Of a DNA stretch of 40,592 bases, positions 7,572 through 36,748 are shown piece after piece; position 1 is the stretch's first letter, and every line of letters begins with the position of its first letter. The translations under genes and the position numbers were made by a program. Origin of the DNA: an uncultured Desulfosoma sp. (lineage in GTDB: Bacteria > Desulfobacterota > Syntrophobacteria > Syntrophobacterales > DSM-9756); assembly GCA_937960435.1 (NCBI GenBank), contig CALGPN010000008.1, positions 1 through 40,592 of the forward strand, given 5' to 3'. The notes beneath the pieces are model-generated. The model did no database searches. It saw only the letters and a list, made by a program, of their open reading frames with translations, and was not told the DNA's origin.

Positions 7572-7584
7572 GTCGCCTCTACCC

Positions 7585-9375: not shown

Positions 9376-9579
9376 GAAAGTGTCTCAGAGCCCCCTGGAT
9401 ACGGGCGAAGATAAGGTTCTTTCCTGGAACCGCAGATCTTCAACGTTGAGACGGTTCCGGCGTCACCTCCTGCTCCAGGGGGATTGCCGAATACGGCATT
9501 CTCACCAAAACCTCTCTTACAAGACCCCGCAAGCCCCCCAGCCTGACATGGCAATCCCGAAAACGGCACCCCGCTATCG
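9376..9579. other. Gene-free stretch before the phn operator
   Basis: No convincing gene is seen. Short inverted repeats (GGTTC/GAACC near 9416-9432; TGCCG/CGGCA near 9485-9499) lack T-tracts, so they are not good terminators. Confidence 0.4.
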
Positions 9580-9617
9580 TCACAGGAATTTCACCACAGG
9601 GTCATGGTCACGTCACA
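9580..9617 (+). promoter_or_regulatory. Pho box-like operator of the phn operon
   Basis: Four half-sites start at 9580, 9591, 9602 and 9613: TCAC, TCAC, TCAT and TCAC, with G before three of them and T before one. The 11-bp step is exact. PhoB binds as head-to-tail dimers to 11-bp direct repeats of TGTCA type, so phosphate-starvation control of the downstream phosphonate operon is the natural reading. A possible -10 (CAATAG) lies at 9629-9634. Confidence 0.7.
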
Positions 9618-9685
9618 GAGTTCCCTTTCAATAGCCACGTCACAAACGAGGCTTTTGGAAGTGACCCTTTTTTGAAGGAATGGTT

Positions 9686-12284: not shown

Positions 12285-12324
12285 AGCCTCTTCAACAGAC
12301 AAAAGACAACAAAGGAGGAAGAAC

Positions 12325-13215: not shown

Positions 13216-13221
13216 TTCTTC

Positions 13222-13280
13222 CTCGCCGAGGACGGCTCCTCTGGGCTCTTGAAGGGCCTGGATCGAGCCCCCTCGGCGAG
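13222..13280 (+). repeat. phnD-phnE intercistronic stem-loop
   Basis: Perfect 10-bp arms CTCGCCGAGG (13222-13231) and CCTCGGCGAG (13271-13280) enclose a second stem GGCTC/GAGCC (13234-13238 and 13265-13269). There is no T-tract, so it is not a standard terminator. Such hairpins after binding-protein genes often protect the upstream mRNA and give more binding protein than permease. Confidence 0.65.
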
Positions 13281-13322
13281 AAAAGCCGGGAGATGCTGCC
13301 GGTGCCCTCCGGGAAGGTTTTT

Positions 13323-14429
13323 ATGGAACACATCGAAGTGAAAACGTTTTCCAAGTTCGGATTTCGTATTCCCTTTCATCGTTTGAAACAGGTTTTGGCC
13401 GGTGGTTGTGTTTTGGTCATTCTTGTCGTCACGTATGTGCGGTGCGGAATCGATCCATTAAAGCTCTGGGAAAAACGTCACCACGCCTGGACCTATCTTT
13501 TCGGACGCCAGCTCACGGATGAAGAAGTGGAGTCGGCACGCCGACAGGCCGAGCGAATGCCGTTGATCATTCTCTCTCAGGAAATTCTCCAGGAACTTAA
13601 GGATAAGGCTCGAAGCTCTCCACAAACGTTGGACTCCTCTGCGCTTACCCTCGAGGCAAAAAATTTGGCGGAAAAGCGGCTGGCCACTATGCCGGAGGAA
13701 CAGCGGCGAGCTATTGTGGACAAGGAGTTCCATCGTCTGGTTACGGAAAAACGCGGCGGTTTCTTTCCGCCGCACACCAGCCCCTCCAGTCTCAAAGACT
13801 ATTCGAAATCCCTTCTAGAGACGGTGGCCATCGCCATTTGGGGCAGTCTCCTCGCCGTCCTTTGGGCTTTGCCCGTTTCGTTCCTTGCGGCGCAAAACAC
13901 GCTCAGAATTTTCTTTCCCGGAGACAGTCGCTCTTATCGGTGGACCCGACGAACGTGCCAATTCTTAGTCCGCCGTCTTCTGGACTTTTGCCGCGGATTC
14001 AATGAGTTCGTCATGGCTTTGGTGTTCGTGGCGGTCATCGGTTTGGGCCCCTTTGCCGGCATTATGGCACTGGCCATCCACACCTTCGGCATCCTAGGCA
14101 AGATTTTCAGCGAAGCCATCGAAGCCATCGAACCGGGGCAGGTCGAGGCGGTCACCGCAACAGGTGCCGGCCCTTTGCAAGTGTTGTCCTTTGCCGTGAT
14201 GCCGCAGGTGATGCCCTTGGTGGTCAGCTACAGCCTTTTACGGTTTGAATCCAATGTGCGCAGCGCCACCATTCTCGGTTTTTGCGGCGCCGGTGGAATC
14301 GGGTTTTTGATGTTCGACAAGATCAGCAGCTACCAGTACCGAGAGGTGGCCACCATGATGGCCATGGTCATTTTCGCCGTCACGGTGATCGATACTCTCT
14401 GCGCCAAGCTACGGCGCCGTTTTATTTGA
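13323..14429 (+). CDS. phnE: Phosphonate ABC transporter permease
   Basis: PhnE is the inner-membrane permease of the phosphonate importer. A first membrane helix (about residues 23-42, VLAGGCVLVILVVTYV) is followed by a hydrophilic stretch of about 110 residues rich in charged helices, and then by the usual permease core from SLLETVAIAIWGSLLAVLWA on. The EAA-type coupling loop is visible as EAIEPGQVEAVTATGAGPL. The 368-residue length exceeds the usual 260-290 because of the hydrophilic insert, which should face the periplasm. The ATG at 13323 has GGGAAGG upstream. Confidence 0.92.
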   Translation: MEHIEVKTFSKFGFRIPFHRLKQVLAGGCVLVILVVTYVRCGIDPLKLWEKRHHAWTYLFGRQLTDEEVESARRQAERMPLIILSQEILQELKDKARSSPQTLDSSALTLEAKNLAEKRLATMPEEQRRAIVDKEFHRLVTEKRGGFFPPHTSPSSLKDYSKSLLETVAIAIWGSLLAVLWALPVSFLAAQNTLRIFFPGDSRSYRWTRRTCQFLVRRLLDFCRGFNEFVMALVFVAVIGLGPFAGIMALAIHTFGILGKIFSEAIEAIEPGQVEAVTATGAGPLQVLSFAVMPQVMPLVVSYSLLRFESNVRSATILGFCGAGGIGFLMFDKISSYQYREVATMMAMVIFAVTVIDTLCAKLRRRFI

Positions 14430-14440
14430 GAGAAAACTTC

Positions 14441-14911
14441 ATGGCGACAAATCACTCGTCGTTGGGAAAAGAAGCTCAGGATGCCCGCCGCCGATGGATG
14501 GCGGTTCTTGCGGAGGCGGATTCCCAGGATTTGCAGTCTTTTTGGGACCGACGCGAAAACAAACCTCACTACGCCGTAATGTCCGGGCCTGAAACCGGGC
14601 TTCTCATGCTTCAAGCGCGTGTGGGCGGAGACGGAGACCGCTTTTACGTGGGAGAAGTCACGGTAACGCGATGTTCGGTATCCATCGCGGAAGGTCCTCA
14701 GGGCACGGCCATGGTTTTGGGGCGACGTCCCCGCCATGCGGAAATCGCCGCCGTTTTGGATGCCGAACTACAGGACCCCAGAAAAAGGGAACATCTGATG
14801 ACAACTTTCATTGAGCCCCTCGCCCGACGCATCCAGGAGGCCCAAAGGCGTGAAGCCGGCCGCGTTGCGGCCACACGAGTGGAATTCTTGACCATGGTCC
14901 GCGGGGAATAG
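14441..14911 (+). CDS. phnG: C-P lyase core subunit PhnG
   Basis: PhnG is part of the PhnGHIJ core complex; with PhnH and PhnI it makes the ribosyl triphosphate phosphonate. The product of 156 residues has the family-typical RRRWMAVLAEAD near the start, the segment FYVGEVTVTRCSV, the polar loop GTAMVLGRRPRHAEIAAVLDA split across that region, and a helical C-terminus. It starts 11 bases after phnE. The gene order G-H-I-J-K-L is the classic one. Confidence 0.93.
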   Translation: MATNHSSLGKEAQDARRRWMAVLAEADSQDLQSFWDRRENKPHYAVMSGPETGLLMLQARVGGDGDRFYVGEVTVTRCSVSIAEGPQGTAMVLGRRPRHAEIAAVLDAELQDPRKREHLMTTFIEPLARRIQEAQRREAGRVAATRVEFLTMVRGE

Positions 14912-14926
14912 TGGGAGGAAGGCGTC

Positions 14927-15550
14927 ATGCCGAGTTATGCCGCAATGTCCTACGCCATGGGGTTCCAAGACCCCGTTTGGGAATCCCAGGAGGCCTTCCG
15001 AGCGATCCTCAACGCCATGGCCTACCCCGGCCGCATGGCTTCTTTTCAGATCCCCCCGAAAATCCCTGGGGATCTGAACCCCGCCTCCTGGGTCGTTCTT
15101 TTGACTCTGGCGGACGATTCCGTACGGTTTTGGACCGACCTTCCCATCGATCACGAAACGCGGTGGGTGATTCAATCGGTGTGTCGCGTCCGAACGGTCC
15201 ATGAGCCTCAGGAGGCCGACCTCGCCCTCGTCACGGATCCCTCAACGACCCTTGCCGCTCCGGTGAATTTTCAGATTGGCACCGAATCGGAACCCTATCT
15301 GGGCGCCACCGTCATCGTGCACGTTTCTTCGTTCAGCACAGGGCCTGAAACGGCTCCGGGCCACGCTTTTCTTCTTTCCGGTCCGGGGATTCGCGAAAAA
15401 TTTCCACTCTTTGTGGCCGGATGCCCCAAAACCTTTTGGGACTGGAGGATAAGACTGGAAACCTTGTACCCCCGAGGGGTGGATGTGCTGCTCACTCACG
15501 AAAACAGTATGGTCGCTCTTCCCCGGTCAACCCATCTCATGTTGGTGTGA
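14927..15550 (+). CDS. phnH: C-P lyase core subunit PhnH
   Basis: PhnH is a dimeric subunit of the C-P lyase core complex. The family signature is clear: an N-terminal VWESQEAFRAILNAMAYPG region (residues about 14-32), then a central TLADDSVRFWTDLP and a C-terminal FLLSGPGI followed by RGVDVLLTHENSMVALPRST. The length of 207 residues is normal. A GGGAGG site lies upstream of the ATG. It ends 7 bases before phnI. Confidence 0.95.
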   Translation: MPSYAAMSYAMGFQDPVWESQEAFRAILNAMAYPGRMASFQIPPKIPGDLNPASWVVLLTLADDSVRFWTDLPIDHETRWVIQSVCRVRTVHEPQEADLALVTDPSTTLAAPVNFQIGTESEPYLGATVIVHVSSFSTGPETAPGHAFLLSGPGIREKFPLFVAGCPKTFWDWRIRLETLYPRGVDVLLTHENSMVALPRSTHLMLV

Positions 15551-15557
15551 GAAACAT

Positions 15558-16658
15558 ATGTACGTTGCAGTCAAAGGCGGCGAGAAAGCCATCGCCAACG
15601 CTCATCGATTTCTTTCCGAAAAACGGCGCGGGGACATTCGCGTTCCTGAGCTCGATGTGAAGCAAATCCAGGAGCAGCTCGGGCTCGCCGTGGATCGCGT
15701 TTTGGCGGAAGGTTCGCTCTACGATCGAGAACTGGCCGCGCTCGCTATAAAGCAGGCCCAAGGGGACCTCGTGGAAGCCGCTTTTCTCCTTCGCGCCTAT
15801 CGCACGACGCTTCCTCGCTTGGGAGTCTCGGAACCGCTTAACACGGGGGCCATGCGGCTTCTCCGCCGCATTTCTTCGGCCTTCAAAGATCTCCCCGGAG
15901 GTCAACTCCTCGGGCCGACCTATGACTACACGCACAGGCTTTTGGACTTCTCCCTTCTAGAACCCAAAGCCGTCCCCGAAAACGTGGTCTACTTGGCGGA
16001 TCGGTCCATCCCTTTGGTGCATCGGGCCCCGCGTGTGACAGACCTTTTGGGCGGCAGCCAACTTGTGGAAAGTTCACAACCTGATGACGCCGCGGATCCC
16101 CACGATGTGACCCAGGAACCTTTTGAGATTCCCGCACCGCGCAGTGCACGCCTTCAGGTTTTGGCTCGAGGCGATGAAGGCTTTCTTGTGGGCATGGCTT
16201 ATTCCGCCCAAAGGGGATTCGGATTTCGCGGCCATCCGTTCGTGGGGGAAATTCGCATGGGATACGTGCCGGTGGTCGTAACGATCCCCGAAACAGGCTT
16301 CAGCGTGACCATCGGCTCCCTGCTGATGACCGAATGCGTGATGCTGAGCCGCCGCGAGAAGCGCGGCCCCGACGGATCTCATTTCGTCCAAGGATATGGT
16401 CTTGTCTTCGGCGCCAACGAACGCAAAGCCATGGCCATGGCCCTTGTGGACCGAGCCTTGCGGTCGCACGAATTGGGCGAGGAGGTGCGCTATCCGGCCC
16501 AGGACCAAGAATTCGTCTTGAGACACAGCGACAATGTGGAAGCGTCCGGTTTTGTCCAGCATTTGAAGCTGCCGCATTACGTGGATTTTCAGGCCGAACT
16601 GTGTCACGTGCGCTCGAGCGACGAAAGCGCCGACTCGCAGGAGGCCGCTGAGAAATAA
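15558..16658 (+). CDS. phnI: C-P lyase core subunit PhnI
   Basis: PhnI is the nucleosidase-like subunit that, with PhnG and PhnH, displaces adenine from ATP by the phosphonate. The N-terminus MYVAVKGGEKAI is diagnostic, as are RISSAFKDLPGGQLLGPT, split RISSAFKDLPGGQ and LLGPTYDYTHRLLDF, and the later YSAQRGFGFRGHPFVGE region. The length of 366 residues is normal. The ATG at 15558 lies just after the phnH stop. Confidence 0.96.
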   Translation: MYVAVKGGEKAIANAHRFLSEKRRGDIRVPELDVKQIQEQLGLAVDRVLAEGSLYDRELAALAIKQAQGDLVEAAFLLRAYRTTLPRLGVSEPLNTGAMRLLRRISSAFKDLPGGQLLGPTYDYTHRLLDFSLLEPKAVPENVVYLADRSIPLVHRAPRVTDLLGGSQLVESSQPDDAADPHDVTQEPFEIPAPRSARLQVLARGDEGFLVGMAYSAQRGFGFRGHPFVGEIRMGYVPVVVTIPETGFSVTIGSLLMTECVMLSRREKRGPDGSHFVQGYGLVFGANERKAMAMALVDRALRSHELGEEVRYPAQDQEFVLRHSDNVEASGFVQHLKLPHYVDFQAELCHVRSSDESADSQEAAEK

Positions 16659-16667
16659 GGTGAGCCC

Positions 16668-17666
16668 ATGGAGTTCTTAACGCCGATGCCTTCTTTGTCC
16701 AAACCTATTCCCGAGCCTTCTTTGAACAAAAAGTCATGGAAAGGACTTTTGGGTTACAACCCGGCCTTTCTCGACGAAACCACCAAGCGACGCATTCGGC
16801 GCACGATTCTCAAAGCCGTGGCCATTCCCGGGCACCAGATTCCCTTCGCCGGCAGGGAAATGCCACTTCCCTACGGCTGGGGCACCGGAGGTATCCAAAT
16901 CACGGCGTCCCTTATCGGCCCCGACGACGTCCTTAAAGTGATCGACCAGGGAGCAGACGACACGACCAATGCCGTCAGTATCCGCAGCTTCTTTCGGAAA
17001 ACGGCCAACGTGAAGACCACGACCGTCACCGAAGAGGCCACGATCATCCAAACCAGACATCGAATTCCCGAAACGCCCCTTCGGGAAGGGCAAATCCTGG
17101 TTTACCAGGTCCCCATCCCCGAACCTCTTCGATTCATCGAACCTCGAGAAGAGGAATGCCGCACACTCCACGCTTTGGCCGACTATGGCCTCATGTACAT
17201 CAAACTTTATGAAGACGTCGTGCGCACGGGTCGTATCGGTGTGGCCTTCGATTACCCCGTTCTGGTAAACGGCCGCTACCTGATGAGCCCTTCCCCCATC
17301 CCCAAATTCGACACCCCCAAAATGCACCAAATGCCCGCTTTGCAGCTTTTCGGGGCGGGGAGGGAAAAGCGCATCTACGCGGTCCCCCCTTACACCGATG
17401 TGCACCCGATGGACTTCGAAGACCTTCCGTTCACGGTCGAACACTGGAGCGAGCGCTGCAACCTGTGTGGGGCGGGCGATCACTACTTGGATGAGGTGAT
17501 CGTGGACGATGCAGGAAACCGAATGTTCATCTGCTCGGATACAGACGCGTGCCGAAAACGACGAGAACAAGCATCGGCCTCCCGAATTCTCCGTGCGGAC
17601 GTCGCCGAAACCCATGCAAATCATGGAGGCGAATCGGCGGGGATCTGTGAACGGGAGACGCCATGA
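16668..17666 (+). CDS. phnJ: Carbon-phosphorus lyase PhnJ (radical SAM)
   Basis: PhnJ breaks the carbon-phosphorus bond using a 4Fe-4S cluster and SAM. The unusual family cysteine pattern CX2CX21CX5C is intact (CNLC near residue 265, then two cysteines in FICSDTDAC). Other conserved parts are YNPAFLDE near the start, RGM-like GREMPLPYGWGTGG and YPVLVNGRYLMSPSP. At 332 residues it is slightly longer than the E. coli protein at both ends. A ribosome site (AAGGTGAG) precedes the ATG. The stop overlaps phnK as ATGA. Confidence 0.97.
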   Translation: MEFLTPMPSLSKPIPEPSLNKKSWKGLLGYNPAFLDETTKRRIRRTILKAVAIPGHQIPFAGREMPLPYGWGTGGIQITASLIGPDDVLKVIDQGADDTTNAVSIRSFFRKTANVKTTTVTEEATIIQTRHRIPETPLREGQILVYQVPIPEPLRFIEPREEECRTLHALADYGLMYIKLYEDVVRTGRIGVAFDYPVLVNGRYLMSPSPIPKFDTPKMHQMPALQLFGAGREKRIYAVPPYTDVHPMDFEDLPFTVEHWSERCNLCGAGDHYLDEVIVDDAGNRMFICSDTDACRKRREQASASRILRADVAETHANHGGESAGICERETP

Positions 17667-18478
17667 CAACCTTGACCCACGAGGCGACACGGCCCCAAAC
17701 ATCTATGGACGAGACACCGCTTCTGCGCGCCCGAGGAATCACGCGTCGTTACGGCACTCGCGTTGGTTGCGCGGACGTCCATGTGGATGTTTTTCCGGGG
17801 GAAGTCGTCGCCGTCGTCGGGGAATCGGGATCGGGAAAAACGACACTTCTCCGCTGTCTTGCCGGTCTTCTCCCTCCGACGGAAGGCACGGTTCTTTTTC
17901 GAAACGGCAAAGATTTCGTCGATCTCCATTCCATTGATGCCTCTGTTCGACGACGACTGTTGCGCACGGCTATCGGTTTCGTCTTCCAGCGGCCGGAAGA
18001 GGGCCTGCGCATGCACGTCAGTGCCGGAGGAAACATTTGCGAGAGGCTCTTGGCCGAAGGCGAACGCCGCCTTCGACGGCTGCGGGAGGTCTCCTCCTTT
18101 TGGATGGAGCGGGTAGAACTGGATCTGGAGCGCCTGGACGACCTTCCGGTCACTTATTCGGGCGGCATGCTTCAACGGCTCCAGATCGCCAAAAACCTCG
18201 CCACGAACCCTCGGATCATTTTTATGGATGAACCGACCAGCGGCTTGGACGTCTCTGTTCAAGCGCGGTTCCTGGATCTCATGAGGCGCCTTGTGCGAGA
18301 ACTCGGCCTGTCGGTGGTCATGGTGACCCATGATCTCGCCGTCGCTCGGCTGCTCGCCCATCGTCTTCTCGTGATGTTCCACGGGCGCGTCGTGGAACAC
18401 GGGCTTATGGACCGCGTCCTTGACGATCCGCAACATCCGTACACTCAACTTCTTGTATCGTCCCGTCTCACAGTCTAG
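17663..18478 (+). CDS. phnK: C-P lyase ABC-type subunit PhnK
   Basis: PhnK is an ABC ATPase that binds the PhnJ face of the C-P lyase core rather than a membrane permease. It has Walker A GESGSGKTT, signature YSGGMLQRLQ, Walker B IIFMDEPTSGLD and a switch histidine in VTHDLA. The C-terminal DPQHPYTQLLVSS resembles peptide-transporter ATPases, as is usual for PhnK. An N-terminal extension of about 18 residues precedes the domain; the ATG used overlaps the phnJ stop. Confidence 0.95.
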   Translation: MTTLTHEATRPQTSMDETPLLRARGITRRYGTRVGCADVHVDVFPGEVVAVVGESGSGKTTLLRCLAGLLPPTEGTVLFRNGKDFVDLHSIDASVRRRLLRTAIGFVFQRPEEGLRMHVSAGGNICERLLAEGERRLRRLREVSSFWMERVELDLERLDDLPVTYSGGMLQRLQIAKNLATNPRIIFMDEPTSGLDVSVQARFLDLMRRLVRELGLSVVMVTHDLAVARLLAHRLLVMFHGRVVEHGLMDRVLDDPQHPYTQLLVSSRLTV

Positions 18479-18495
18479 AGGTCCGGTGCGATCCC

Positions 18496-19251
18496 ATGGC
18501 GAAAGAATGGATGCTCCGTGTGGAATCGGTGGCAAAAACCTTCACCCTTCACGGGCACGGGGGTGTGCGCCTGTGCGTCCTTCAAAACTTCGACTTGGAG
18601 CTCCTCCGGGGGGAAAGCGTGGCCCTGATCGGGCCCTCGGGAATTGGGAAGAGCTCGGTTTTGCGCATGATTTACGGCAACTACGCCGTCGATCGCGGCC
18701 GGATTCTTGTCCGCTGCGGAACCACGTTCATCGACATGGCCGCCGCAGGTCCTCAAACGGTGCTGCGAGTGCGTCGGGACACCGTCGGGTACGTCAGTCA
18801 ATTTCTTCGGGTTATCCCAAGAGTCTCGACCCTCGACGTCCTAATGGAACCCCTCCTGAACCAGGGCGTTCCTGAAGAGGACGCCCGGAAACAGGCCCAG
18901 GACATGCTCCTTCGGCTCGACATCAGCCCCAAACTTTGGGGACTGTCTCCGACCACGTTTTCCGGAGGCGAGCAGCAGCGGGTGAACATCGCTCGTGTCT
19001 TTATATGCCCTTATCCCATCCTCCTCTTAGACGAACCGACCGCTTCACTGGATCCTCGAAATCGAGACACCGTAATCACCCTCATTCGTGAAGCGTGGCG
19101 CCGGGGCGCCGCCATTCTGGGTGTTTACCACGATCCCTTGGTCCGCCGGCAGGCGGCGGATCGAGTGGTCTCTTTGGAGCCTTTTGCCTCAACTTCTCAC
19201 GCAATGGAAGGAGGATGCCGCAATGGATCCGTTCACGCGGAAGCGCTTTGA
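18496..19251 (+). CDS. phnL: C-P lyase ABC-type subunit PhnL
   Basis: PhnL is the second ABC-type subunit associated with C-P lyase. Walker A is GPSGIGKSS, the signature FSGGEQQRVN and Walker B ILLLDEPTASLD. The N-terminal MLRVESVAKTFTLH and the segment GGVRLCVLQNF match the PhnL/LolD-like group. The length of 251 residues is slightly above usual because of a C-terminal tail. The tail overlaps the DksA-type gene by 29 bases. phnF, phnN and phnP are not found nearby. Confidence 0.94.
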   Translation: MAKEWMLRVESVAKTFTLHGHGGVRLCVLQNFDLELLRGESVALIGPSGIGKSSVLRMIYGNYAVDRGRILVRCGTTFIDMAAAGPQTVLRVRRDTVGYVSQFLRVIPRVSTLDVLMEPLLNQGVPEEDARKQAQDMLLRLDISPKLWGLSPTTFSGGEQQRVNIARVFICPYPILLLDEPTASLDPRNRDTVITLIREAWRRGAAILGVYHDPLVRRQAADRVVSLEPFASTSHAMEGGCRNGSVHAEAL

Positions 19252-19758: not shown

Positions 19759-20196
19759 TTAATGACTGACGTCGAGTGATTCCACCCATTGGTGGACCTT
19801 GGCTTTAATCGCGTCGCGAATGGCCCGCACCTTCGCCTTTCGTTCGTCAGGGGACGATCCTTCAACCCTGGAGGGGTCGGGAAAAGGCCAGTGTTCACGG
19901 CGTGCGATGCCGGGAAAGATGGGACAGGCCGCCTCCTCCGCATCATCGCAGACCGTGACCACGGCGTCGAACACCTTTCCTTGGCGGTAAACATCGAAGA
20001 CGCTCCTCGGAAGATGCCCGCTCACGTCAATCCCCTCTTCCCTCATCACTTCCACGATGTCGGGAAGCACGGATTTCGGCTCCAAGCCGGCGCTTTCCGC
20101 CCGCACCTTCCCCTTGCCGAACATGTTGGCATAGGCCTCGGCCATGACGCTTCGACCGCTATTGTGCACACAGATAAAAAGAACTCTCTGTTCCAT
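19759..20196 (-). CDS. arsC: Arsenate reductase, thioredoxin-coupled type
   Basis: This low-molecular-weight phosphatase-fold enzyme reduces arsenate to arsenite. The catalytic loop CVHNSGRS places the nucleophile at Cys9 in a CX5R motif, and a second redox pair is Cys83 and Cys91 (VCDDAEEAACP). That triad matches the S. aureus-type thioredoxin-coupled enzymes. At 145 residues it is full length. No arsR, acr3 or arsB is adjacent, so it is not in an ars operon; instead a three-repeat Pho box-like array lies 55 bases upstream. Arsenate enters through phosphate transporters, which would make such control sensible. A protein phosphatase role is less likely. Confidence 0.9.
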   Translation of the reverse strand: MEQRVLFICVHNSGRSVMAEAYANMFGKGKVRAESAGLEPKSVLPDIVEVMREEGIDVSGHLPRSVFDVYRQGKVFDAVVTVCDDAEEAACPIFPGIARREHWPFPDPSRVEGSSPDERKAKVRAIRDAIKAKVHQWVESLDVSH

Positions 20197-20250
20197 AACG
20201 CCCCCTTCGTTCCTGTGGATTGGTTCTTCGCCTCAGTGAAGCCGAGGCGC

Positions 20251-20277
20251 GTGACAGCCGCGTGACGTTTTGGTGAC
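20251..20277 (-). promoter_or_regulatory. Pho box-like operator of arsC
   Basis: GTGAC starts at 20251, 20262 and 20273 on the plus strand, which reads as three GTCAC half-sites with an exact 11-bp step on the minus strand, towards arsC. Two of them are TGTCAC. The first repeat unit, TGTCACCAAAA, occurs again in the array before the lipid operon. Confidence 0.7.
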
Positions 20278-20324
20278 ATCTCGGTCACGACTTCTATGGC
20301 CTAGGAGCTCAAGGAACAGGAGGA

Positions 20325-24658: not shown

Positions 24659-24785
24659 GGGTTCGCCTCCCGTTTGCGTTATCGATCGTGTCACGTTTGC
24701 CACGAGAAGGTTTCCGGCAGGCGTCGTTGAGGTGACAATTCCATGAAAACGGGGGACGTCCAGCGTTTTCTCAGCGGAAAACGGA

Positions 24786-27933: not shown

Positions 27934-27971
27934 GTGTCGATTATGCGTCATTTTGGTGACAAGGGCGTAAC
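27934..27971 (-). promoter_or_regulatory. Pho box-like operator of the lipid operon
   Basis: On the minus strand, half-sites GTTAC, GTCAC, GACGC and GACAC occur with exact 11-bp steps (plus-strand starts 27967, 27956, 27945 and 27934). The unit TGTCACCAAAA is identical to one before arsC. A weak -10 (TAGTGT) follows towards the GT4 gene. Confidence 0.58.
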
Positions 27972-28052
27972 GGGCTCACGGGCCGCCTGGAGCATCCGTG
28001 CGGAATTGACGAGAATGAATCCGGTGTGCATCAGATGGAAAAGGCCGGCGGC
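27934..28052. repeat. Direct repeat copy A (ATPase 3' end)
   Basis: This pairs with 29460-29565 in the same orientation. The 89-base segment 27964-28052 differs from 29477-29565 at about four positions, and 27934-27950 matches 29460-29476 with one difference. Copy A carries 13 extra bases (27951-27963) between these blocks. Confidence 0.9.
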
Positions 28053-29459: not shown

Positions 29460-29565
29460 GTGTCGATTATACGTCAGGCGTAACGGGCTCACGGGCCGCC
29501 TGGTGCATCCGTGCGGAATTGACGAGAATGAATCCGGTGTGCATCACATGGAGAAGCCCGGCGGC
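29460..29565. repeat. Direct repeat copy B (intact ATPase 3' end)
   Basis: This is the intact counterpart of 27934-28052. It includes the last 33 codons of the ATPase gene and 7 bases beyond its stop. Together the copies bracket about 1.4 kb holding the DUF433/DUF5615 pair. Confidence 0.9.
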
Positions 29566-31683
29566 CCCCGGTCCGACAATTCCCGTCACGGCCGCCACGG
29601 CCCCGATGACGTTGGAGCTCATCGCCCAAAAAAAGTTCGCCCGCGCCAGCCGAAGCATTTTTTCGCCCATGTGCCGCAGCAGCAGAAACTTGCGCACATC
29701 GCCGTCCAGAAGAACCACATCAGCGGTTTCCAACGCCGCAGCAGCCCCTTGGGATCCCAGAGCTACCCCGAGGTCAGCTCGACTCAAGGCTGGCGCGTCG
29801 TTGATCCCGTCGCCGATCATCGCCACGCGATAACCTCTCTTTTGAAGGTCTTCCACCCGAGACACTTTGCCTTCGGGATCCAGATCCCCCAAGGACGCAT
29901 CAAACGGCAAGCCCTCCGCAAAGCGCCGGACGGCGGCGGAACTGTCCCCGCTCAGAAGTTCCAGGCGCTGAACCCCCTCGCTCCGAAGGGTCTGCAAAAA
30001 TTCACTCAGACCGTCCCGCACGGAAGAGCTTAAAACTACAAGACCCTGCAGGCGGTTGTTTTTGGCCACATAGACCACAAGGCGGCCCCGCCGACGATGC
30101 TCCCGAGCTTTCTTTGCAAAGTACCCTACGGACACGCCCCGTTCGCGCATGAACGATTCGCTCCCCACGAGGACGGTTTGCCCTCCGACCCGCGCCTGCA
30201 CTCCGCGCCCGGGGCAGACCTCCTGTTCCTCGGCCGACCAAATCTCTTGGCCTGCCTTTTCGGCAGCATGCCTCAAAGCAATCGCCACCGGGTGGGGGGA
30301 TTGCTTTTCCGCTGCCGCCGCCAGCGCCAGAACCTCTCCCTCTTTCATCCACGGGGCTCTCGGCTGAACCCCGTGGACGCACAGAACACCCGCCGTCAAG
30401 GTGCCGGTTTTGTCGAAACAGACGGCGTCCACAACAGGCACCATCTCTAAGGACCGCCCGCTTTTGACGATCACGGCGCGTCTCACCAAGGCCGCCACCG
30501 CGGTCGTGATCACAGAGGACGCGGCCAACACCATGGCGCAAGGGCATGCAAAGACCAGAAAAACGGAGAGCGCCCTCTGGAGATCTACGGTTACGGCGAG
30601 CGTCACGGCTGTCGCCCATAGGCCCATGCTGAGCGTCCGCCGCGAATAGACTTCGGCCCGCCGTTCCAACTCTGTGCGTGTTCGAAGCCCTTCGAGTACC
30701 AAAGATTGCATCCGGGCAAGAGCCGTTTCCTGCGCGCTTTTTTCCGTCACGATGAAAAGCGTTCCTTCAAGGACTCGAGACCCGGCGAAGACCGGACAAC
30801 TGTGACGGCACACTTTAGGGAACGCGCGCCCAGTAAGATGGGATTCATCCACGGCGGCAAGGCCGTCCTGAACGAAACCGTCTACAGGAATCACCCGGCC
30901 CGGTCCGACGACGACCACATCCCCCGCAGTGATTTCCGAAAGGCTACGCGCTCGGAGGGTATCGGCCTCCAAAACATCGATGGTCTTTGGCAAATGGGGG
31001 AAAGATTCGGCAAGATACCGAGCCGCTCTCTGCTCGCTTCGAGCCTCCATCCAAAGGCTCACGTGCCCCACAAAAAGGATCTCCACGGCCGTCAGGGCGC
31101 GGGACGAGACCACGGCCAAAAGAGCGGCTCCGTTGAGCACAGGGATGAGTCGGCGATGATGCCGACGAGGCCGTCGGGAATTTTTCCGCCACAAAAGGAC
31201 CACGGCCATAAGGCTCACAATGCCGGCTGCGGAAAAGGGGCCCTGTGCCAAACCGCTTCCCCAAAGAATTCTCTTGAAAAGGGCCACGGCAAGAACTCCC
31301 CCGAGACCAGCGAAAGTTAAGAGGGAAAGGCGTTCGGAAGACGGGTCTAATGAGGCATCAGAAAGAAAAGGGGAAGGATCGGGATAGGAGATCGTGTCCT
31401 TTGGATCAAAGCATTCTTGCAACTCGGCCATGTGCCCACGACAGTACCCTTGAAGGCTTTTCCAAAAGGCATCCGCGTTCGTGGGGTGCCGACTTAAATG
31501 AAAAATGATGGAGCCGCTGAACGAGCGCACCGTCACCTTGTGCACTCCTTCCATTCCGGTGAGAAAGGTTTGCAGGCTTTGGGCGACTCGGGCGTCCCAA
31601 GGCCGTTGGGACACCTTCACTCGAACCCTTCCGGGAATAAAATGGCGAACCCTGGCTCTGGACAAATCGAAGTGGCTCATCAT
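29467..31683 (-). CDS. P1B-type metal-transporting ATPase, FezB-like
   Basis: This is a 738-residue heavy-metal P-type ATPase. An N-terminal HMA-like domain lacks the CXXC metal site and instead has HFIPGRVRVKV. Two hydrophobic pairs follow, then the A-domain, the membrane metal motif ACPCA, the phosphorylation site DKTGTLT, the P1B hallmark SPHPVA and the hinge GDGINDAPALS. ATPases with this CXXC-less, arginine-bearing domain include the P1B-6 pumps of ferrosome (fez) loci, thought to load iron into membrane granules; Mn or Zn efflux pumps are the alternative. ATG at 31683 or 31680 follows GGAGGG. Its C-terminus is duplicated at 27951-28062. Confidence 0.82.
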   Translation of the reverse strand: MMSHFDLSRARVRHFIPGRVRVKVSQRPWDARVAQSLQTFLTGMEGVHKVTVRSFSGSIIFHLSRHPTNADAFWKSLQGYCRGHMAELQECFDPKDTISYPDPSPFLSDASLDPSSERLSLLTFAGLGGVLAVALFKRILWGSGLAQGPFSAAGIVSLMAVVLLWRKNSRRPRRHHRRLIPVLNGAALLAVVSSRALTAVEILFVGHVSLWMEARSEQRAARYLAESFPHLPKTIDVLEADTLRARSLSEITAGDVVVVGPGRVIPVDGFVQDGLAAVDESHLTGRAFPKVCRHSCPVFAGSRVLEGTLFIVTEKSAQETALARMQSLVLEGLRTRTELERRAEVYSRRTLSMGLWATAVTLAVTVDLQRALSVFLVFACPCAMVLAASSVITTAVAALVRRAVIVKSGRSLEMVPVVDAVCFDKTGTLTAGVLCVHGVQPRAPWMKEGEVLALAAAAEKQSPHPVAIALRHAAEKAGQEIWSAEEQEVCPGRGVQARVGGQTVLVGSESFMRERGVSVGYFAKKAREHRRRGRLVVYVAKNNRLQGLVVLSSSVRDGLSEFLQTLRSEGVQRLELLSGDSSAAVRRFAEGLPFDASLGDLDPEGKVSRVEDLQKRGYRVAMIGDGINDAPALSRADLGVALGSQGAAAALETADVVLLDGDVRKFLLLRHMGEKMLRLARANFFWAMSSNVIGAVAAVTGIVGPGAAGLLHVMHTGFILVNSARMHQAAREPVTPDV

Positions 31684-31700
31684 AGGACCCTCCGAAGGTG

Positions 31701-31733
31701 TGTCACAGACTTGTCATTTTATTGCCATGAAAA
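31701..31733 (+). promoter_or_regulatory. Pho box-like operator of the DUF5132 operon
   Basis: TGTCAC (31701), TGTCAT (31712) and TGCCAT (31723) step by exactly 11 bases, with T-rich spacers, very close to the canonical PhoB site. It points towards the operon at 31880; a weak -10 (CAAAAT) is at 31750-31755. The divergent ATPase may share the region. Confidence 0.72.
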
Positions 31734-31812
31734 TGAAAAAAACGGTCGACAAAATGAGAAGATTTTTGGGGATCGAATGAATTTTTCCCTTGAAGCGGCC
31801 CGGCGTTGCCGA

Positions 31813-31827
31813 TATGCATTATGCATA
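31813..31827. promoter_or_regulatory. Palindromic operator candidate
   Basis: TATGCAT-T-ATGCATA is a perfect 15-base inverted repeat 50 bases before the DUF5132 start, downstream of the Pho box. Its position suits a second, perhaps metal-responsive, regulator. Confidence 0.45.
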
Positions 31828-31879
31828 AGGTTTTGGGGTAGTCTTCGATTTTTTTCGATCCAATGACAGGAGGGAAACC

Positions 31880-32131
31880 ATGAAGCTCAGCGACATCGAT
31901 GTCCCAAAAAGTCTTCTTTTCGGTGTTGCGGCGGCCGTCGTCGCCCCGGTTCTCCTGCCGGTTGTCGGCGCGGTGGTCCGCCCGGTGCTTAAAACGGCCA
32001 TCAAGGGAGGCATCCTCTTGTACCACAAAGGGCGTGAATTGGTCGCCGAAGTCGTGGAAAGCGTAGAGGATCTCACAGCTGAGGCCAAGGCGGAAATGGA
32101 GCCGAAGCAGGCTGCTCCCGAAACCACCTGA
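31880..32131 (+). CDS. DUF5132-type small membrane protein
   Basis: This 83-residue protein has a hydrophobic, glycine/alanine-rich segment (residues 12-35, LLFGVAAAVVAPVLLPVVGA, continuing into VVRP), a basic amphipathic piece KTAIKGGILLYHKGREL, and an acidic tail. The pattern LPVVGAVVRPVLKTAIKGGI is typical of DUF5132 proteins, which occur next to HMA2 proteins and metal ATPases. Small glycine-rich membrane proteins also occur in ferrosome loci. AGGAGGG precedes the ATG. It is first in an operon with the HMA2 protein and the second ATPase. Confidence 0.82.
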   Translation: MKLSDIDVPKSLLFGVAAAVVAPVLLPVVGAVVRPVLKTAIKGGILLYHKGRELVAEVVESVEDLTAEAKAEMEPKQAAPETT

Positions 32132-32161
32132 GCCGGAAACACTCGGGGGCGAGGAAACGGT

Positions 32162-32740
32162 ATGCCTTACTATGCCGACGTGGTTCACCACACAAAGAAC
32201 CGAATTCGCATCAAACTGCGGGACAAGGTGCGGGATCCTGCTTTTTACGAGCACCTCAAGCAGAGCGCCGCTGACCTTCCGGGTGTGGAATCCGTGGCGA
32301 TCAACCCCATCACCGGTTCGATTCTCTGCACAGGAATGGATCTCGACGCCCATCAGATTGCAGCGGCGCTCGTTCAAAAATCTTTGTTGCGTTTTGAAGC
32401 CGCGCCGGCCCTTCACCCCGTTCAACGGGCGGTTCAGCCGTTTATGACACTCAGCCGCAAACTCAAGGGGATGACCGGCGGCGAGGTCGGGCTGACCGAA
32501 GCAGGCTTTCTGGCGCTTCTCACCATTGGAGTCATCCAAATTCTTCGAGGCAACATCACCGCTCCTCCATGGTACACGGCCTTCTGGTACGCTTTCGGCG
32601 TGTTCAGCAAAGCTCTTGTGGAAAAGTACGCCGCAGAACCGGAACCGCCCTTGAAAGATCATCCGATGAGCCCGCAAAACGCTGAGTCCCAGACACCATC
32701 GGAACCGGAACCGATTCAGATGGAGCCGGAGTTCGAATAG
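32162..32740 (+). CDS. HMA2-type membrane protein
   Basis: This 192-residue protein has an N-terminal ferredoxin-like HMA2 domain (residues 1-80) with VVHHTKNRIRIKLRD, no CXXC, and NPITGSILC. A helical linker and one or two hydrophobic segments (near AGFLALLTIGVIQIL and WYTAFWYAFGVF) follow, then a proline/glutamate-rich tail. It probably sits in the membrane as an accessory of the metal ATPases. It starts 30 bases after the DUF5132 stop and ends shortly before the second ATPase. Confidence 0.8.
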   Translation: MPYYADVVHHTKNRIRIKLRDKVRDPAFYEHLKQSAADLPGVESVAINPITGSILCTGMDLDAHQIAAALVQKSLLRFEAAPALHPVQRAVQPFMTLSRKLKGMTGGEVGLTEAGFLALLTIGVIQILRGNITAPPWYTAFWYAFGVFSKALVEKYAAEPEPPLKDHPMSPQNAESQTPSEPEPIQMEPEFE

Positions 32741-32768
32741 ACCCGCACCCCCAGAGGTGCCGAGCACG

Positions 32769-35700
32769 ATGAGGTTGCGGCCTATGATCCGCGTCGTTCA
32801 TTGCCGTGTACACGGGAGAGTGCGCCTTCGGCTCGGGCAACTGAAGGGGCATGCCGCGTTGGGGCGGCATCTTACGGAACGGTTACAAAACCACCAAGGT
32901 GTTCGCTCCGTACATGTCGGCCTCACCACGGGAAGCCTTCTCGTGGGCTACACCGCTCCTTTGACTCATTATCAAGACGTCGTTCGCTTGGTTGACGAGA
33001 TCGTCCGAGGCTTCCCCAAAAACGACGGCGAGATTCGGCTCTCCTCAAAGTTCTCAGCGAAGACCGTATCCGACGGAAAGCCTATTGGATCGGCTCCTCG
33101 GGAGAGTCAAGCGCCCCCTCCCGGCGATCGCCATGAACTTCGCGAAAAACTGACGGTCCTTTGGAATCACCTGCACCGGCAAAACGATGATTCCTGGCAT
33201 AATTTGACGCCCCAAGCGTGTTTGACGCGGCTCGGATCGTCATGGGAAGGGCTGTCGCAAGAGGAGGCTCTGAAAAGACTCTCCCTCTACGGGCCCAATG
33301 ACGTGTCGGAGGCTCCCCGGGTCTCTCGGTGGCGATTGTTTGCCAAACAATTCGTTTCGCTCCCCGTGGCTCTGCTCGGCGCCGTGAGCGCGGTGTCCCT
33401 GGTCACCGGGGGGCTCGCAGACGCCCTCATCATCGGGGGCGTGGTCGTGGCCAACGCCGTAATCGGCTTCATCACAGAAAAAAGCTCCGATGAAGCCATT
33501 TCGGCTCTTCGGCAACTGGAAGAACCCGATGCGCGCGTCATTCGCTCCGGGCGGGAAAGAAGCGTGCCCCGTAGGGATCTGGTTCCCGGGGACGTGGTGG
33601 TGCTTCGAGCAGGATCGAGTGTTCCCGCCGACGGGCGCCTGCTTCAAGCGGATCATCTCTTTGTGGACGAATCCTCTCTGTCCGGAGAGAGCCTCCCGGT
33701 CGGTAAAACGTCCCGAGTGTTGCTGGCCGAAAACGTCCCCCTGCATGACCGCCACAACATGGTCTTTCGAGGGACCGTGGTCACCGGCGGCTCAGGGCTC
33801 GCCGTGGTCACCGCCACAGGAGAACACACGGAAATTGGCCAATTGCAACGGCTTCTGGAAAGAACGGAGAAAGCCAAAGCCCCCATCGAACGTCAGCTGG
33901 ACGCCCTGGGAAGCCGACTGGTTCTTCTCTGTCTAGCCGTCTGCGCCTTGTGCTTTGGGATCGGCGTCCTTCGAGGGTACGGCCTTCTGGCCATGACTCG
34001 ATTGAGCCTGTCCCTGGGGGCGGCCGCCATTCCGGAAGGACTGCCCGCCGCCGCCACGACGACGTTCGCCTTGGCTGTGAGGCGAATGCGTCGGCGCGGT
34101 GTCCTCATTCGCGATCTCACCGCGGTGGAGGCTCTTGGGGCCATCCAGATTCTGTGCGTGGACAAGACGGGAACCTTGACGGAAAATCGCATGACCGTTC
34201 AGGAAATCGTGGTGGACGGGTCGCGTTACACCGCCCGAAACAATGCGGTCTTTCTCGACGGTGCCCGCATCGACCCGCTCGGTCACGACGCACTGCGCAA
34301 GATCCTCGAGATTTCCTGTCTTTGCACCGAAACCCGAATGCAGGAAGACGCCCGGGGCACGGCGTTTTGTTTGGACGGCTCCCCCACGGAAGTTGCCCTC
34401 ATTCATTTGGCCGAAAACAACGGATTGGCCTTTGAAAAGATTCGACGGAATTTTCCCGCGCAGTGGTTGCGTTTGCGATCCGAATCCCGAGCCTACATGG
34501 CGAGTTGCCATCGAAACAACGACGGAGACGCCTGGGTTGCGGTTAAAGGAAGTCCCGAAGACGTGCTGAACGCCTGTGACAAGGAGCTGAGCGGCGGTGC
34601 CGTTGTGGAGCTCACCGACCAGCGGCGTCGCGCCATCCTTGAGGAAAACGCGCGCTTATCGGCCCGGGGTTTGCGCGTCTTAGGATTCGCTTACGGGCCC
34701 GGAGACGGGGCGGAACGGGACAACTTGGGCGGCTGGATCTGGTGCGGTCTCGTGGGCATGGCCGACCCTATCAAGACAGGAGCAATTGAAACCGTTCAAG
34801 CTCTCCATCGGGCCGGCCTTCAAGTGGTCATGCTGACCGGTGATCAGGAACTGACCGCATCCTCGGTGGCCCAAGCCCTAGGGCTCTCCGGAAACAGCCC
34901 CTTGCGCATCGTCGATGCCTCACAGCTCAACGGCTCACCGGTGGAAAAGACCCATTTCATCCCCGACCAGGTGCATGTGTTTTCGCGAGTCAGCCCGGCT
35001 TTGAAGCTACGCATCGTCCAGATGCTGCGACGGTCGGGAAAGATCGTGGGCATGACCGGCGACGGCATCAACGACGCCCCGGCTCTCAAAGCCGCCGACG
35101 TGGGTGTGTGCATGGGGGAAAACGGCACCCGGGTGGCCCAGAACGTGGCCAACGTGGTCCTGGAAAACGACGATCTGACCAGTTTGGTGACCGCGCTGGA
35201 GGAAGGCCGCACCATTCAAGACAACATCAAGAAATCAGTTTATTTTTTTCTCTCCAGCAATCTGAGCGAAATTCTGGTGGTTTCCGGAGCGCTCTGCTTC
35301 GGGCTTCCCACTCCGCTCAATGCCATGCAGCTGCTGTGGATTAACCTCATTTCCGATATCTTTCCCGGCATCGCCCTGTCCATGGAACCGCCGGAACCTG
35401 ATGTGCTCCTCCGCCCTCCGAGGGAAGCTCACGCGCCCCTCTTCGGTCGGGAGGATTTCCTCCGCATGAGCCGAGAAGCGGCCGTGTTGGCGGGCGGGTC
35501 TCTCTTGGGGAGCCTCTACGGCCTTATACGTGGAGGCACGGCGGCTCATGCGTCCACCATGGCGTTTCACATCCTGTCCTGTTCCCAATTGGCCCACGCT
35601 CTCGTGTGTCGTCATGAAAAAAAAGGATCGTCGGTGTCTCTTCCTCGGGCAAACCCGGCTCTCCTTGCCGCAGTGGGCGGATCCTTTGTCGCCCAATTCT

Positions 35701-35978
35701 TGACGGGGTGGATTCCCGCCCTCAGGCGCTTCCTGCGGCTTACCCCCATGGGCCTCCTGGACTGGGTCGTCGTAGGGCTCGGTGCGGCGGCCACCGCCTG
35801 GGCCAACCTCAAAGCGAAAAAGTCCGCCCAATTGCGTCAAGATCTTCCGGCGGTCGCTTCTCTTCGCGTTGTCTCTGAAAACGTCGGAATGCAAAAAACC
35901 CACGAGGCGGCCGGGATGCCGCTCTCATGGGATTGGAGAAAAAAGGTGAGAGAGGATGTGGTGGGACGGCCGATTTAG
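32769..35978 (+). CDS. P-type ATPase with HMA2 domain on a P2-like core
   Basis: The 1069-residue protein begins with an HMA2-like domain (VVHCRVHGRVRLRLG; TTGSLLVGY). A linker of about 60 residues leads to a cation-ATPase N-terminus (LTPQACLTRLGSSWEGLS), then the A-domain SLSGESLPV, the membrane motif AAIPEGLPA, phosphorylation site DKTGTLTENRM and hinge GDGINDAPAL. The PEGLP motif and absence of CPC and of the P1B SPHP motif put the core with P2-type Ca/cation pumps rather than heavy-metal pumps. The ion is unknown. ATG 32769 (AGAGG upstream) or 32784 is possible. Its stop overlaps the convergent HMA2 gene. Confidence 0.82.
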   Translation: MRLRPMIRVVHCRVHGRVRLRLGQLKGHAALGRHLTERLQNHQGVRSVHVGLTTGSLLVGYTAPLTHYQDVVRLVDEIVRGFPKNDGEIRLSSKFSAKTVSDGKPIGSAPRESQAPPPGDRHELREKLTVLWNHLHRQNDDSWHNLTPQACLTRLGSSWEGLSQEEALKRLSLYGPNDVSEAPRVSRWRLFAKQFVSLPVALLGAVSAVSLVTGGLADALIIGGVVVANAVIGFITEKSSDEAISALRQLEEPDARVIRSGRERSVPRRDLVPGDVVVLRAGSSVPADGRLLQADHLFVDESSLSGESLPVGKTSRVLLAENVPLHDRHNMVFRGTVVTGGSGLAVVTATGEHTEIGQLQRLLERTEKAKAPIERQLDALGSRLVLLCLAVCALCFGIGVLRGYGLLAMTRLSLSLGAAAIPEGLPAAATTTFALAVRRMRRRGVLIRDLTAVEALGAIQILCVDKTGTLTENRMTVQEIVVDGSRYTARNNAVFLDGARIDPLGHDALRKILEISCLCTETRMQEDARGTAFCLDGSPTEVALIHLAENNGLAFEKIRRNFPAQWLRLRSESRAYMASCHRNNDGDAWVAVKGSPEDVLNACDKELSGGAVVELTDQRRRAILEENARLSARGLRVLGFAYGPGDGAERDNLGGWIWCGLVGMADPIKTGAIETVQALHRAGLQVVMLTGDQELTASSVAQALGLSGNSPLRIVDASQLNGSPVEKTHFIPDQVHVFSRVSPALKLRIVQMLRRSGKIVGMTGDGINDAPALKAADVGVCMGENGTRVAQNVANVVLENDDLTSLVTALEEGRTIQDNIKKSVYFFLSSNLSEILVVSGALCFGLPTPLNAMQLLWINLISDIFPGIALSMEPPEPDVLLRPPREAHAPLFGREDFLRMSREAAVLAGGSLLGSLYGLIRGGTAAHASTMAFHILSCSQLAHALVCRHEKKGSSVSLPRANPALLAAVGGSFVAQFLTGWIPALRRFLRLTPMGLLDWVVVGLGAAATAWANLKAKKSAQLRQDLPAVASLRVVSENVGMQKTHEAAGMPLSWDWRKKVREDVVGRPI

Positions 35979-36352
35979 ATGAAAATCGTCAGCAGGGAAA
36001 ACGGCGTATTTTTTAACGCGGCGTCCAAAGCCACGTTCAAAAGGGCCCTGGCCACGATCTGTCCCGCCTTGGCGGCCGTGAATCCCTCGGGGTTTTGTGC
36101 GTCGGAGCCGCCGACACGGGCCGCGTTGAGATGCCCGCGCTCCTTGAGCGCCGCAATGATTGCATCCGGCGACGTCATAGACTCATCGTAATAGACGACC
36201 ACGCTTCCGGTGACCGGGTTGCATTGGGCTTTTTCAACCCCGGGAAGGGTTTCCAAAAGATCTTGCACCACCGGGGCTCCGCCGGGGCTGTAACGGATCG
36301 TCGGAACTTTAATGCGAACTCGACCGGGGATTTTGTGTACCAGATAGCTCAT
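35975..36352 (-). CDS. HMA2-type protein
   Basis: This 125-residue protein is mostly a single HMA2 domain: LVHKIPGRVRIKVP, then LPGVEKAQCNPVTGSVVVYYD, with no CXXC. A C-terminal hydrophobic helix (ARALLNVALDAALKN and beyond) may anchor it. The RVRIKV element is shared with both ATPases and the other HMA2 protein in the cluster. The ATG overlaps the stop of the zinc-ribbon gene (ATGA), so the pair is coupled. The stop overlaps that of the second ATPase on the other strand. Confidence 0.82.
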   Translation of the reverse strand: MSYLVHKIPGRVRIKVPTIRYSPGGAPVVQDLLETLPGVEKAQCNPVTGSVVVYYDESMTSPDAIIAALKERGHLNAARVGGSDAQNPEGFTAAKAGQIVARALLNVALDAALKNTPFSLLTIFI

Positions 36353-36639
36353 CTTTCATACCACCTCTGACAATGGCTGTCTTCCTGATCGTTCTTATGG
36401 GCGACGTATCCACGGCACCGGGGGTACTCCGAACACCGGTAGGCCGTGCAGCCTTCCCTTCGATGGTGAATGTGCATCGCAGCCCCGCACAAAGGACAGT
36501 GCGGCCTTTCGGTTTGTAAAGTCTTGGAAGGGTTCATCACAAATTGATACAGGCAGATCTGGCATCGATATCGTTGCTTTCCTGCTTCCGAAAAGCCATA
36601 TTTGTAAATCGCTTCGCTTCCGCACCGCGGGCATCGCAT
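36349..36639 (-). CDS. InsA-like zinc-ribbon protein
   Basis: The 96-residue protein has two treble-clef-type cysteine sets. The first, MRCPRCGSEAIYKYG, then YRCQICLYQF, closely resembles the N-terminal zinc ribbon of IS1-type InsA proteins. The second is CPLC and CSEYPRC. There is no transposase domain and no IS end nearby, so it looks like a stand-alone regulator or metal-binding protein. ATG 36639 follows GAGG; the frame is open upstream to 36732. It is coupled to the HMA2 gene. Confidence 0.75.
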   Translation of the reverse strand: MRCPRCGSEAIYKYGFSEAGKQRYRCQICLYQFVMNPSKTLQTERPHCPLCGAAMHIHHRREGCTAYRCSEYPRCRGYVAHKNDQEDSHCQRWYER

Positions 36640-36711
36640 GATCGCCTCGCCTTCGCCTTTAGTTTTCGCTGCTTCTTTAGGCCGCTTTTGTGAACCCTTT
36701 ATGGCGCCATG

Positions 36712-36727
36712 GTGACAATTGCGTGAC
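36712..36727 (-). promoter_or_regulatory. Pho box-like operator of the zinc-ribbon/HMA2 pair
   Basis: On the minus strand TGTCACGCAATTGTCACC gives two perfect TGTCAC half-sites 11 bases apart (plus-strand GTGAC at 36712 and 36723). A -10-like CATAAA follows 8 bases further on (36703-36698). It lies downstream of phoH and 73 bases before the zinc-ribbon start. Confidence 0.68.
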
Positions 36728-36748
36728 AACACATTTGTGCCTGCCGCC

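Follow-up and report, generated by a model that had tools for sequence, protein, structure and literature searches.

Which membrane system is encoded at positions 29467-36639 of a 40,592-nucleotide contig from an uncultured Desulfosoma sp., and under which conditions is it expressed? The contig (C8, here called the window) belongs to a genome of 3.0 Mb in 61 contigs that is 95% complete, and the cluster in question holds two P-type ATPase genes together with genes for small HMA_2, DUF5132 and zinc-ribbon proteins. A first-pass annotation, made from the letters alone, read it as a ferrosome (fez) locus under phosphate control. The phosphate half of that interpretation appears well supported, and the cluster is probably a cation-pump module of the Pho regulon built around an HMA_2-P2A ATPase, not a ferrosome locus.

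In the cluster, a P1B ATPase gene on the reverse strand diverges from a forward run encoding a DUF5132 protein, an HMA_2-membrane protein and a second P-type ATPase. Beyond this run lies a converging reverse-strand pair, a small HMA_2 protein and a zinc ribbon. The features, in which TM stands for transmembrane helix, are as follows:

29467-31683, reverse strand: P1B-type ATPase with CPC in TM4, HxxH in TM6, an N-terminal HMA_2 domain (GRxR) and TGR replacing TGE; member of the CPC-HxxH clade
31700-31728, forward strand: triple period-11 Pho-box array, GTGTCACagacTTGTCATtttaTTGCCAT, in the divergent promoter
31880-32131, forward strand: DUF5132 small membrane protein, a hydrophobic segment followed by a Glu/Ala-rich stretch, PacL-like in layout
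32162-32740, forward strand: HMA_2 domain protein with a hydrophobic C-terminal region
32757-35978, forward strand: HMA_2-P2A (Ca2+/Mn2+-type) P-type ATPase; among solved proteins, closest to SPCA1 and Listeria LMCA1 (lmo0841)
35975-36352, reverse strand: small HMA_2 protein, by Pfam family match
36349-36639, reverse strand: zinc-ribbon protein, a recurrent partner also found in loci L072, L073, L090, L093 and L094
36701-36729, reverse strand: Pho box, perfect at 36712-36729 (TTGTCACgcaaTTGTCAC), about 60-90 bp upstream of the zinc-ribbon ATG

The second ATPase, of 1073 residues, can be assigned with confidence to the P2A, or Ca2+-type, pumps and not to the heavy-metal pumps. Its best NCBIfam models are those of PMR1- and SERCA-type Ca2+ pumps, both under their equivalog cut-offs, and its solved relatives are SPCA1 (1e-141) and lmo0841 (8e-138). 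The putative Ca2+-site residues were followed through 62 relatives from 60 loci, at positions that we take to be those binding Ca2+ in SERCA: the TM4 glutamate is present in 61, the TM5 asparagine and glutamate in 60 each, and in TM6 the asparagine in 61, the serine or threonine in 61 and the aspartate in 60. DKTGT and GDGxND occur in all 62 sequences and TGES in 57. CXXC is found within the first 110 residues in none of them, and GRxR is kept in 60.

At an E-value of 0.001 or better, HMA_2 has four matches in the whole genome, all inside the cluster, and these domains carry GRxR-like motifs and lack CXXC, as read from the sequence. Scores exceed the cut-off of 30 bits for the protein at 32162-32740 (36.3 bits), reach 42 bits for the small HMA_2 protein, and stay under it for the N-terminal domains of the first (23 bits) and second ATPase (28.1 bits); the DUF5132 protein scores 38 bits (cut-off 25), and the zinc ribbon was scanned as the longer frame 36349-36732. 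The first-pass annotation was right about the parts, since family matches and sequence confirm a CPC-type ATPase with an arginine-bearing, CXXC-less HMA domain, a DUF5132 protein, two HMA2 proteins and a second ATPase. Its description of the DUF5132 protein as glycine-rich does not hold, with 5 glycines counted in 83 residues. Rfam, at gathering scores, gave no match in the window.

Phosphate control is supported by the promoters. The genome was scanned with the pattern TTGTCAYN4TTGTCAY, and up to two mismatches returned 24 sites, against 12 for the reversed pattern used as control (which was not split by mismatch number). With at most one mismatch, only four sites are found in 3.0 Mb, all in the window, at 36712, 24732, 31700 and 31711; the last two overlap, and both lie in the divergent promoter of the cluster. 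Within the window, 16 matches have up to three mismatches; 100 shuffles gave 6.8 on average and never more than 14. The genome also has its own pst locus, with PstB (TIGR00972) and, by Pfam, PhoU, a response regulator and a phosphate permease. Between phoB and the pst genes it carries period-11 repeats of the same kind, which are the three best-scoring in that 14-kb stretch, and the cluster promoter boxes match them. The two Pho box-like sites of the first-pass annotation are recovered, at 31700-31728 (forward) and 36701-36729 (reverse), and phosphate control is supported by the pst-phoB boxes, from the genome-wide rank of the sites and from the boxes and Pho neighbours in other phyla described below. 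The boxes of the cluster are presumably functional.

The window itself is a phosphate-stress island. It encodes phnD, an ABC permease, ABC ATPases, phnH, phnI, phnJ, PhoH, an OlsF-like double-domain acyltransferase, glycosyltransferases and a DUF3419 (BtaA-like) protein. Further period-11 arrays stand upstream of several genes of the island, two of which are:

24732-24749, reverse strand: Pho box upstream of a PHP-glycosyltransferase gene
20251-20290, reverse strand: period-11 Pho-box-like array upstream of a low-molecular-weight phosphatase/arsenate-reductase-like gene

The latter array is four-fold and sits just upstream of its gene, the two together spanning 19759-20290. The phn genes (substrate-binding protein, permease, PhnH, PhnI, PhnJ and ABC ATPases) occupy 9577-19251, also with Pho-box-like repeats upstream. 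At 3809-8490, FeoB is followed by genes for a rubrerythrin and the DUF3419 protein, the latter possibly involved in betaine lipids.

Relatives of the cluster are widespread. DUF5132 occurs in 16 of 247 genomes, own included, and in named genomes a single DUF5132 peptide pattern retrieved 107 relatives, the best 80 of which were kept and correspond to 79 loci. They come from Thermodesulfobacteriota, Nitrospirota, Cyanobacteria, Burkholderiales, Nitrosospira, Methylococcaceae and Ensifer/Sinorhizobium, among others. After removal of five duplicate records, 92 module loci were compared; contig ends cut many of them, so that the counts of parts are lower bounds and absence from a single locus is not shown. 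The HMA_2-membrane protein is found in 81, the P2 ATPase in 68, the small HMA_2 protein and a paralog of MetK in 49 each, an amphipathic-repeat (Senescence-like) protein in 41 and the zinc ribbon in 18. CPC P1B ATPases are present in 8 loci and P1B6-labelled ones also in 8 (seven of them cyanobacterial). These counts suggest a core made up of the P2-DUF5132-HMA_2 set, to which the CPC ATPase would be an addition. The cluster is best read as a member of a widespread and apparently undescribed membrane-protein set around a calcium-type pump, which bacteria seem to turn on at low phosphate. No paper mentioning DUF5132 in a relevant context was found in the literature searched, and the module was not described in the titles and abstract openings among the matches listed for Pho boxes together with P-type ATPases and MetK, for acidocalcisomes, or for the Pho regulon together with P-type ATPases.

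The cyanobacterial DUF5132 loci L211, L212, L215, L239, L243, L245 and L249 encode P1B ATPases of another subgroup, and in those whose motifs were read (L212, L215, L243, L245 and L249) TM4 has DFATG or DFVTG and TM6 has NN or HN. The amphipathic-looking repeat protein, a weak match to the Senescence domain, lies beside HMA_2 and P2 ATPase genes at L035:1210-1899 and in 40 other module loci, and could coat a membrane or a granule.

The phosphate signal extends to these relatives. Upstream leaders were scored by a matrix based on the general Pho half-site. Among DUF5132 leaders, 11/74 reach at least 12 bits, compared with 1/149 control leaders, all from the phylum of the window (Fisher P 2.8e-5); leaving out the window, 10/73 do (P 7.6e-5). 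A spacing test, independent of these controls, points the same way: at 16 bits, 5/75 DUF5132 leaders (window included) have a box at a spacing of 11 and 0/75 at each of the spacings 8, 9, 10, 12, 13 and 14, and at 12 bits there are 11 at spacing 11 against 0 to 4 at the others. The small-HMA_2 leaders (9/40) and the zinc-ribbon leaders (3/12, the window's own not among them since it was taken as the longer frame) also reach at least 12 bits, as does 1/7 of the CPC P1B leaders, the window's. Near-perfect boxes are found in Burkholderiales and a proteobacterial metagenome-assembled genome (L192, L193), in Ensifer/Sinorhizobium (L228, L223) and in L093.

Gene neighborhoods agree with the leaders. 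Of the 18 genomes known at that stage to carry the module, 17 were examined for PstB, leaving out G149 (a 3.3-kb contig), and in 5/17 a pstB gene is found no more than 20 kb from the module, where 0.44 were expected (P about 5e-5); the distances are 2.7 kb in G261, 3.3 kb in G358, 5.3 kb in G219, 5.5 kb in G046 and 16.7 kb in G099. Core Pho genes, counted as Pst, PhoU, PhnI/J, alkaline phosphatase and PsiE, occur in 23/92 module loci (1366 kb), and in 0/20 random windows (20 kb each, at round coordinates, in ten module-bearing genomes), 0/10 ferrosome-like loci and 0/3 other loci. Without the loci that supplied reference proteins, 17/86 remain, with P 0.002 against all 33 controls. In a label-free clustering of neighbour proteins, PstB comes first after the module's own parts, with 15 loci, in a cluster that may include other ABC ATPases.

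Several observations weigh against this interpretation. No 12-bit box is present in 63/74 DUF5132 leaders, including those of L088 and L181, which adjoin pst genes, and some other spacings give median scores at least as high as those at 11 bp. The leaders of P2 ATPases (3/36), amphipathic-repeat proteins (1/21) and MetK (0/8) reach 12 bits without clear difference from the controls, and in L094, the nearest module found in the order, the boxes are weak (10.8 and 11.1 bits). Of the 23 Pho-positive loci, 6 supplied reference proteins, and the remaining 17/86, set against just the 20 random windows, give P 0.02; all of these were drawn from the phylum of the window. The cation-site residues of the pump cannot tell Ca2+ from Mn2+, and the ion, the direction of transport and any granule or organelle are inferred. 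The missing boxes would fit phosphate control limited to the neighbours, with a metal cluster merely parked in a Pho island, as would the Pho-gene richness of the window, where nearby boxes are expected. This is nevertheless the least probable of the readings considered, given a perfect box and a triple array directly upstream of the cluster genes, whose counterparts in Burkholderiales, Ensifer/Sinorhizobium and Methylococcaceae are also preceded by boxes.

The first ATPase is a protein of 738 residues with an E1-E2 ATPase domain and CPC, and in a tree of 53 P1B sequences, which contains no CtpC or FezB from any named species, it forms with 20 others one clade (support 100/100) set apart from the P1B6-labelled and the generic (Zn/Cd/Cu-type) pumps. 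Its branch is long (1.67), which makes its precise position within this clade unsure. The first-pass annotation had named a place inside a Zn/Mn efflux clade as an outcome that would speak against it; this was not seen either, the protein standing apart from the sampled Zn/Cd/Cu-type pumps. The P1B6 label was assigned by best match to 16 rows that are not one clade: 14/16 group together (99/97), and the second ATPase of L074 (CPC plus HN) and L244 fall outside. All 21 members of the CPC-HxxH clade have CPC, HxxH in TM6, GDGxND and DKTG (19 DKTGT/S, 2 DKTGA), and none has HN. The glutamate of the actuator TGE motif has a catalytic role in P-type ATPases. At this aligned position the clade has glutamate in 0/21 (arginine in 17, cysteine in 2, glutamine in 1 and valine in 1), compared with 16/16 in both the P1B6-labelled and the generic sequences. 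Because the clade is without this residue, the CPC-HxxH ATPase of the cluster may not pump normally and may instead turn over slowly or play a regulatory or structural part. No publication describing the clade was found in a search on altered TGE motifs, judged by titles and abstract openings among the matches listed.

Full-length relatives of this ATPase (36-40% identity) occur in 3/39 other close genomes, and 18/395 genomes across the phylum, own included, have relatives at 1e-95; none was found on plasmids at 1e-60, and of 10 pattern matches in viral contigs none is related to it. Besides the cluster's own, a single P1B ATPase was found in the genome, a CopA-like protein on contig C18. A second copy of the 3' end of the cluster's P1B gene lies at a distance of 1.5 kb, forming an 89-nt direct repeat of 96% identity (27964-28052 and 29477-29565); the two copies flank a toxin-antitoxin-like DUF433/DUF5615 pair.

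In the ferrosome reading, the CPC ATPase would act as FezB in forming iron-phosphorus granules, and phosphate control would tune iron-phosphate storage. We take FezB to be a P1B6-type ATPase, with HN in TM6 and no CPC in TM4, and none was found in the 95%-complete genome; tree, motifs and this negative search speak against FezB membership for 29467-31683. The recurrent pump, moreover, is of Ca2+ type, and the ferrosome identification is not supported. FezC is described as a DUF4405-like cytochrome in PMC10979944 (ferrosomes are also treated in PMC12574912 and PMC12748827). DUF4405 was not found among the cluster proteins and has a single match in the genome, on contig C37, although a search of this kind would miss a FezC that has diverged too far from the Pfam model. 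The CPC ATPase is present in only 8/92 module loci, many of them cut by contig ends, and the best Fur-like match in the cluster promoters (9/14 to a Fur consensus) is no better than shuffles (mean 8.6), in a scan so insensitive that FeoAB-linked loci reach at most 10/14. In favour of the reading are those loci, presumably ferrosome-like: 8/16 P1B6-labelled sequences have SCA, SCV or GCA plus HN, the CPC-HxxH clade stands beside them in these 8 loci, and FeoA or FeoB is nearby in 7/8. A clade member also lies beside FeoB in L075, and in the window FeoB and rubrerythrin are 22-26 kb off. In a profile alignment, DUF5132 is related to the small YtxH-like protein encoded in the FeoAB-linked loci (hhalign, 94% probability). 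Since both kinds of locus also contain the CPC-HxxH ATPase, the module and ferrosome-like loci appear to share parts. A ferrosome locus is, on balance, improbable.

Somewhat less improbable, and still quite unlikely, is a metal-efflux platform of the PacL/CtpC type, in which DUF5132 would be the scaffold and the ATPases would export toxic Zn2+, Mn2+ or Cd2+. The DUF5132 layout resembles that of PacL1, a small transmembrane protein with a Glu/Ala-rich cytoplasmic part encoded with a CPC ATPase in mycobacteria (PMC9374683; PMC13043812), and CPC in TM4 is shared with CtpC. However, PMC9374683 lists HN in TM6 among the features of P1B6 pumps and, from its combination of HN and CPC, classes CtpC as P1B6-like, whereas the clade has HxxH. 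The context is phosphate, not metal stress. Two DUF5132 proteins scanned at E-values up to 5 gave no DUF1490 or DUF6110 match, and that of the window has no His/Asp-rich C-terminus, hence no PacL-type C-terminal metal-binding motif; DUF6110 (PF19605) was not matched in 15 genomes either, in a search in which no positive control responded, so that its absence remains unproven.

In many relatives, though not in the window's genome, a second MetK adjoins the P2 ATPase. The paralog is present in 6/8 genomes examined, all six of which also carry a normal MetK. In 47 aligned paralogs, such as L080:7674-8867, and numbering by the Desulfosoma MetK, Asp241 is replaced by His and Lys272 by Arg in 47/47 and Glu56 by Arg in 40/47; His15, Asp17, Glu43, Lys248, Lys268 and Asp274 are kept in 47/47 and Lys168 in 33. 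The changed positions presumably correspond to methionine-binding residues of the E. coli enzyme, and the kept ones to residues for ATP, metal and triphosphate. Since the former are altered and the latter mostly kept, a different substrate is suggested, and possibly a new enzyme activity. This paralog, acting on a new substrate, could be a helper in a further, unlikely variant, in which a phosphate-controlled ferrosome-like compartment or platform would let the HMA_2-P2A ATPase concentrate Ca2+/Mn2+ with phosphate or polyphosphate, as a bacterial counterpart of the acidocalcisome. DUF5132, the HMA_2 proteins and the amphipathic-repeat protein would provide its scaffold, and in some lineages a P1B ATPase unable to complete the normal catalytic cycle would also assist.

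For the Pho-regulon cation-pump module, the most likely function is that a scaffolded P2A pump, induced through the Pho system, exports or sequesters Ca2+ or Mn2+. At low phosphate, the phosphate response regulator would bind the two Pho boxes and induce, in one direction, the DUF5132 protein, the HMA_2-membrane protein and the P2A pump and, in the other, the zinc-ribbon and small HMA_2 proteins. The pump would move Ca2+ (or Mn2+) out of the cytoplasm, and the DUF5132 and HMA_2 proteins, like the PacL proteins of mycobacteria, would cluster pumps in patches of the membrane. Free cytosolic divalent cation would thereby be lowered while its major ligands, phospholipid and polyphosphate, run down. 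In the Desulfosoma genome, the CPC-HxxH P1B ATPase would have been added to the module. If this is true, several bacterial phyla answer phosphate starvation with a dedicated system of calcium-type pumps, which connects two mutually precipitating ions. HMA_2, DUF5132-type small proteins and the CPC-HxxH ATPase would then be a wider toolkit, shared with ferrosome-like loci and used with different pumps.

Among known systems, the Pho regulon is approached through its PhoB box of period-11 TGTCAY repeats, the same in the pst-phoB region of this genome and in the cluster; no paper placing the DUF5132/HMA_2-P2A module in this regulon was found in the literature searched. The fez clusters of Desulfovibrio magneticus and Clostridioides difficile likewise combine an HMA_2-bearing P-type ATPase with small membrane proteins, and the FeoA/FeoB-linked ferrosome-like loci also have the CPC-HxxH clade and a DUF5132-related small protein. 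Here, in contrast to fez clusters (no locus of a named species being compared), no P1B6 ATPase is found, the recurrent ATPase is a Ca2+-type P2A pump, and Pho boxes and Pho genes take the place of iron-uptake genes. The mycobacterial PacL1-CtpC platform is similar in its CPC ATPase, whose N-terminal domain in CtpC we take to resemble HMA_2, and in the DUF5132 layout. It differs in that the ATPase of the window has HxxH instead of HN in TM6 and TGR instead of TGE, and that the main partner is a P2A pump. The closest solved relatives of that pump, the P2A Ca2+-ATPases SPCA1/PMR1 and LMCA1, have the same Ca2+-site residues; the Desulfosoma protein differs from them in its fused N-terminal HMA_2 domain, which bears GRxR, and in its association with DUF5132/HMA_2 partners and phosphate genes.

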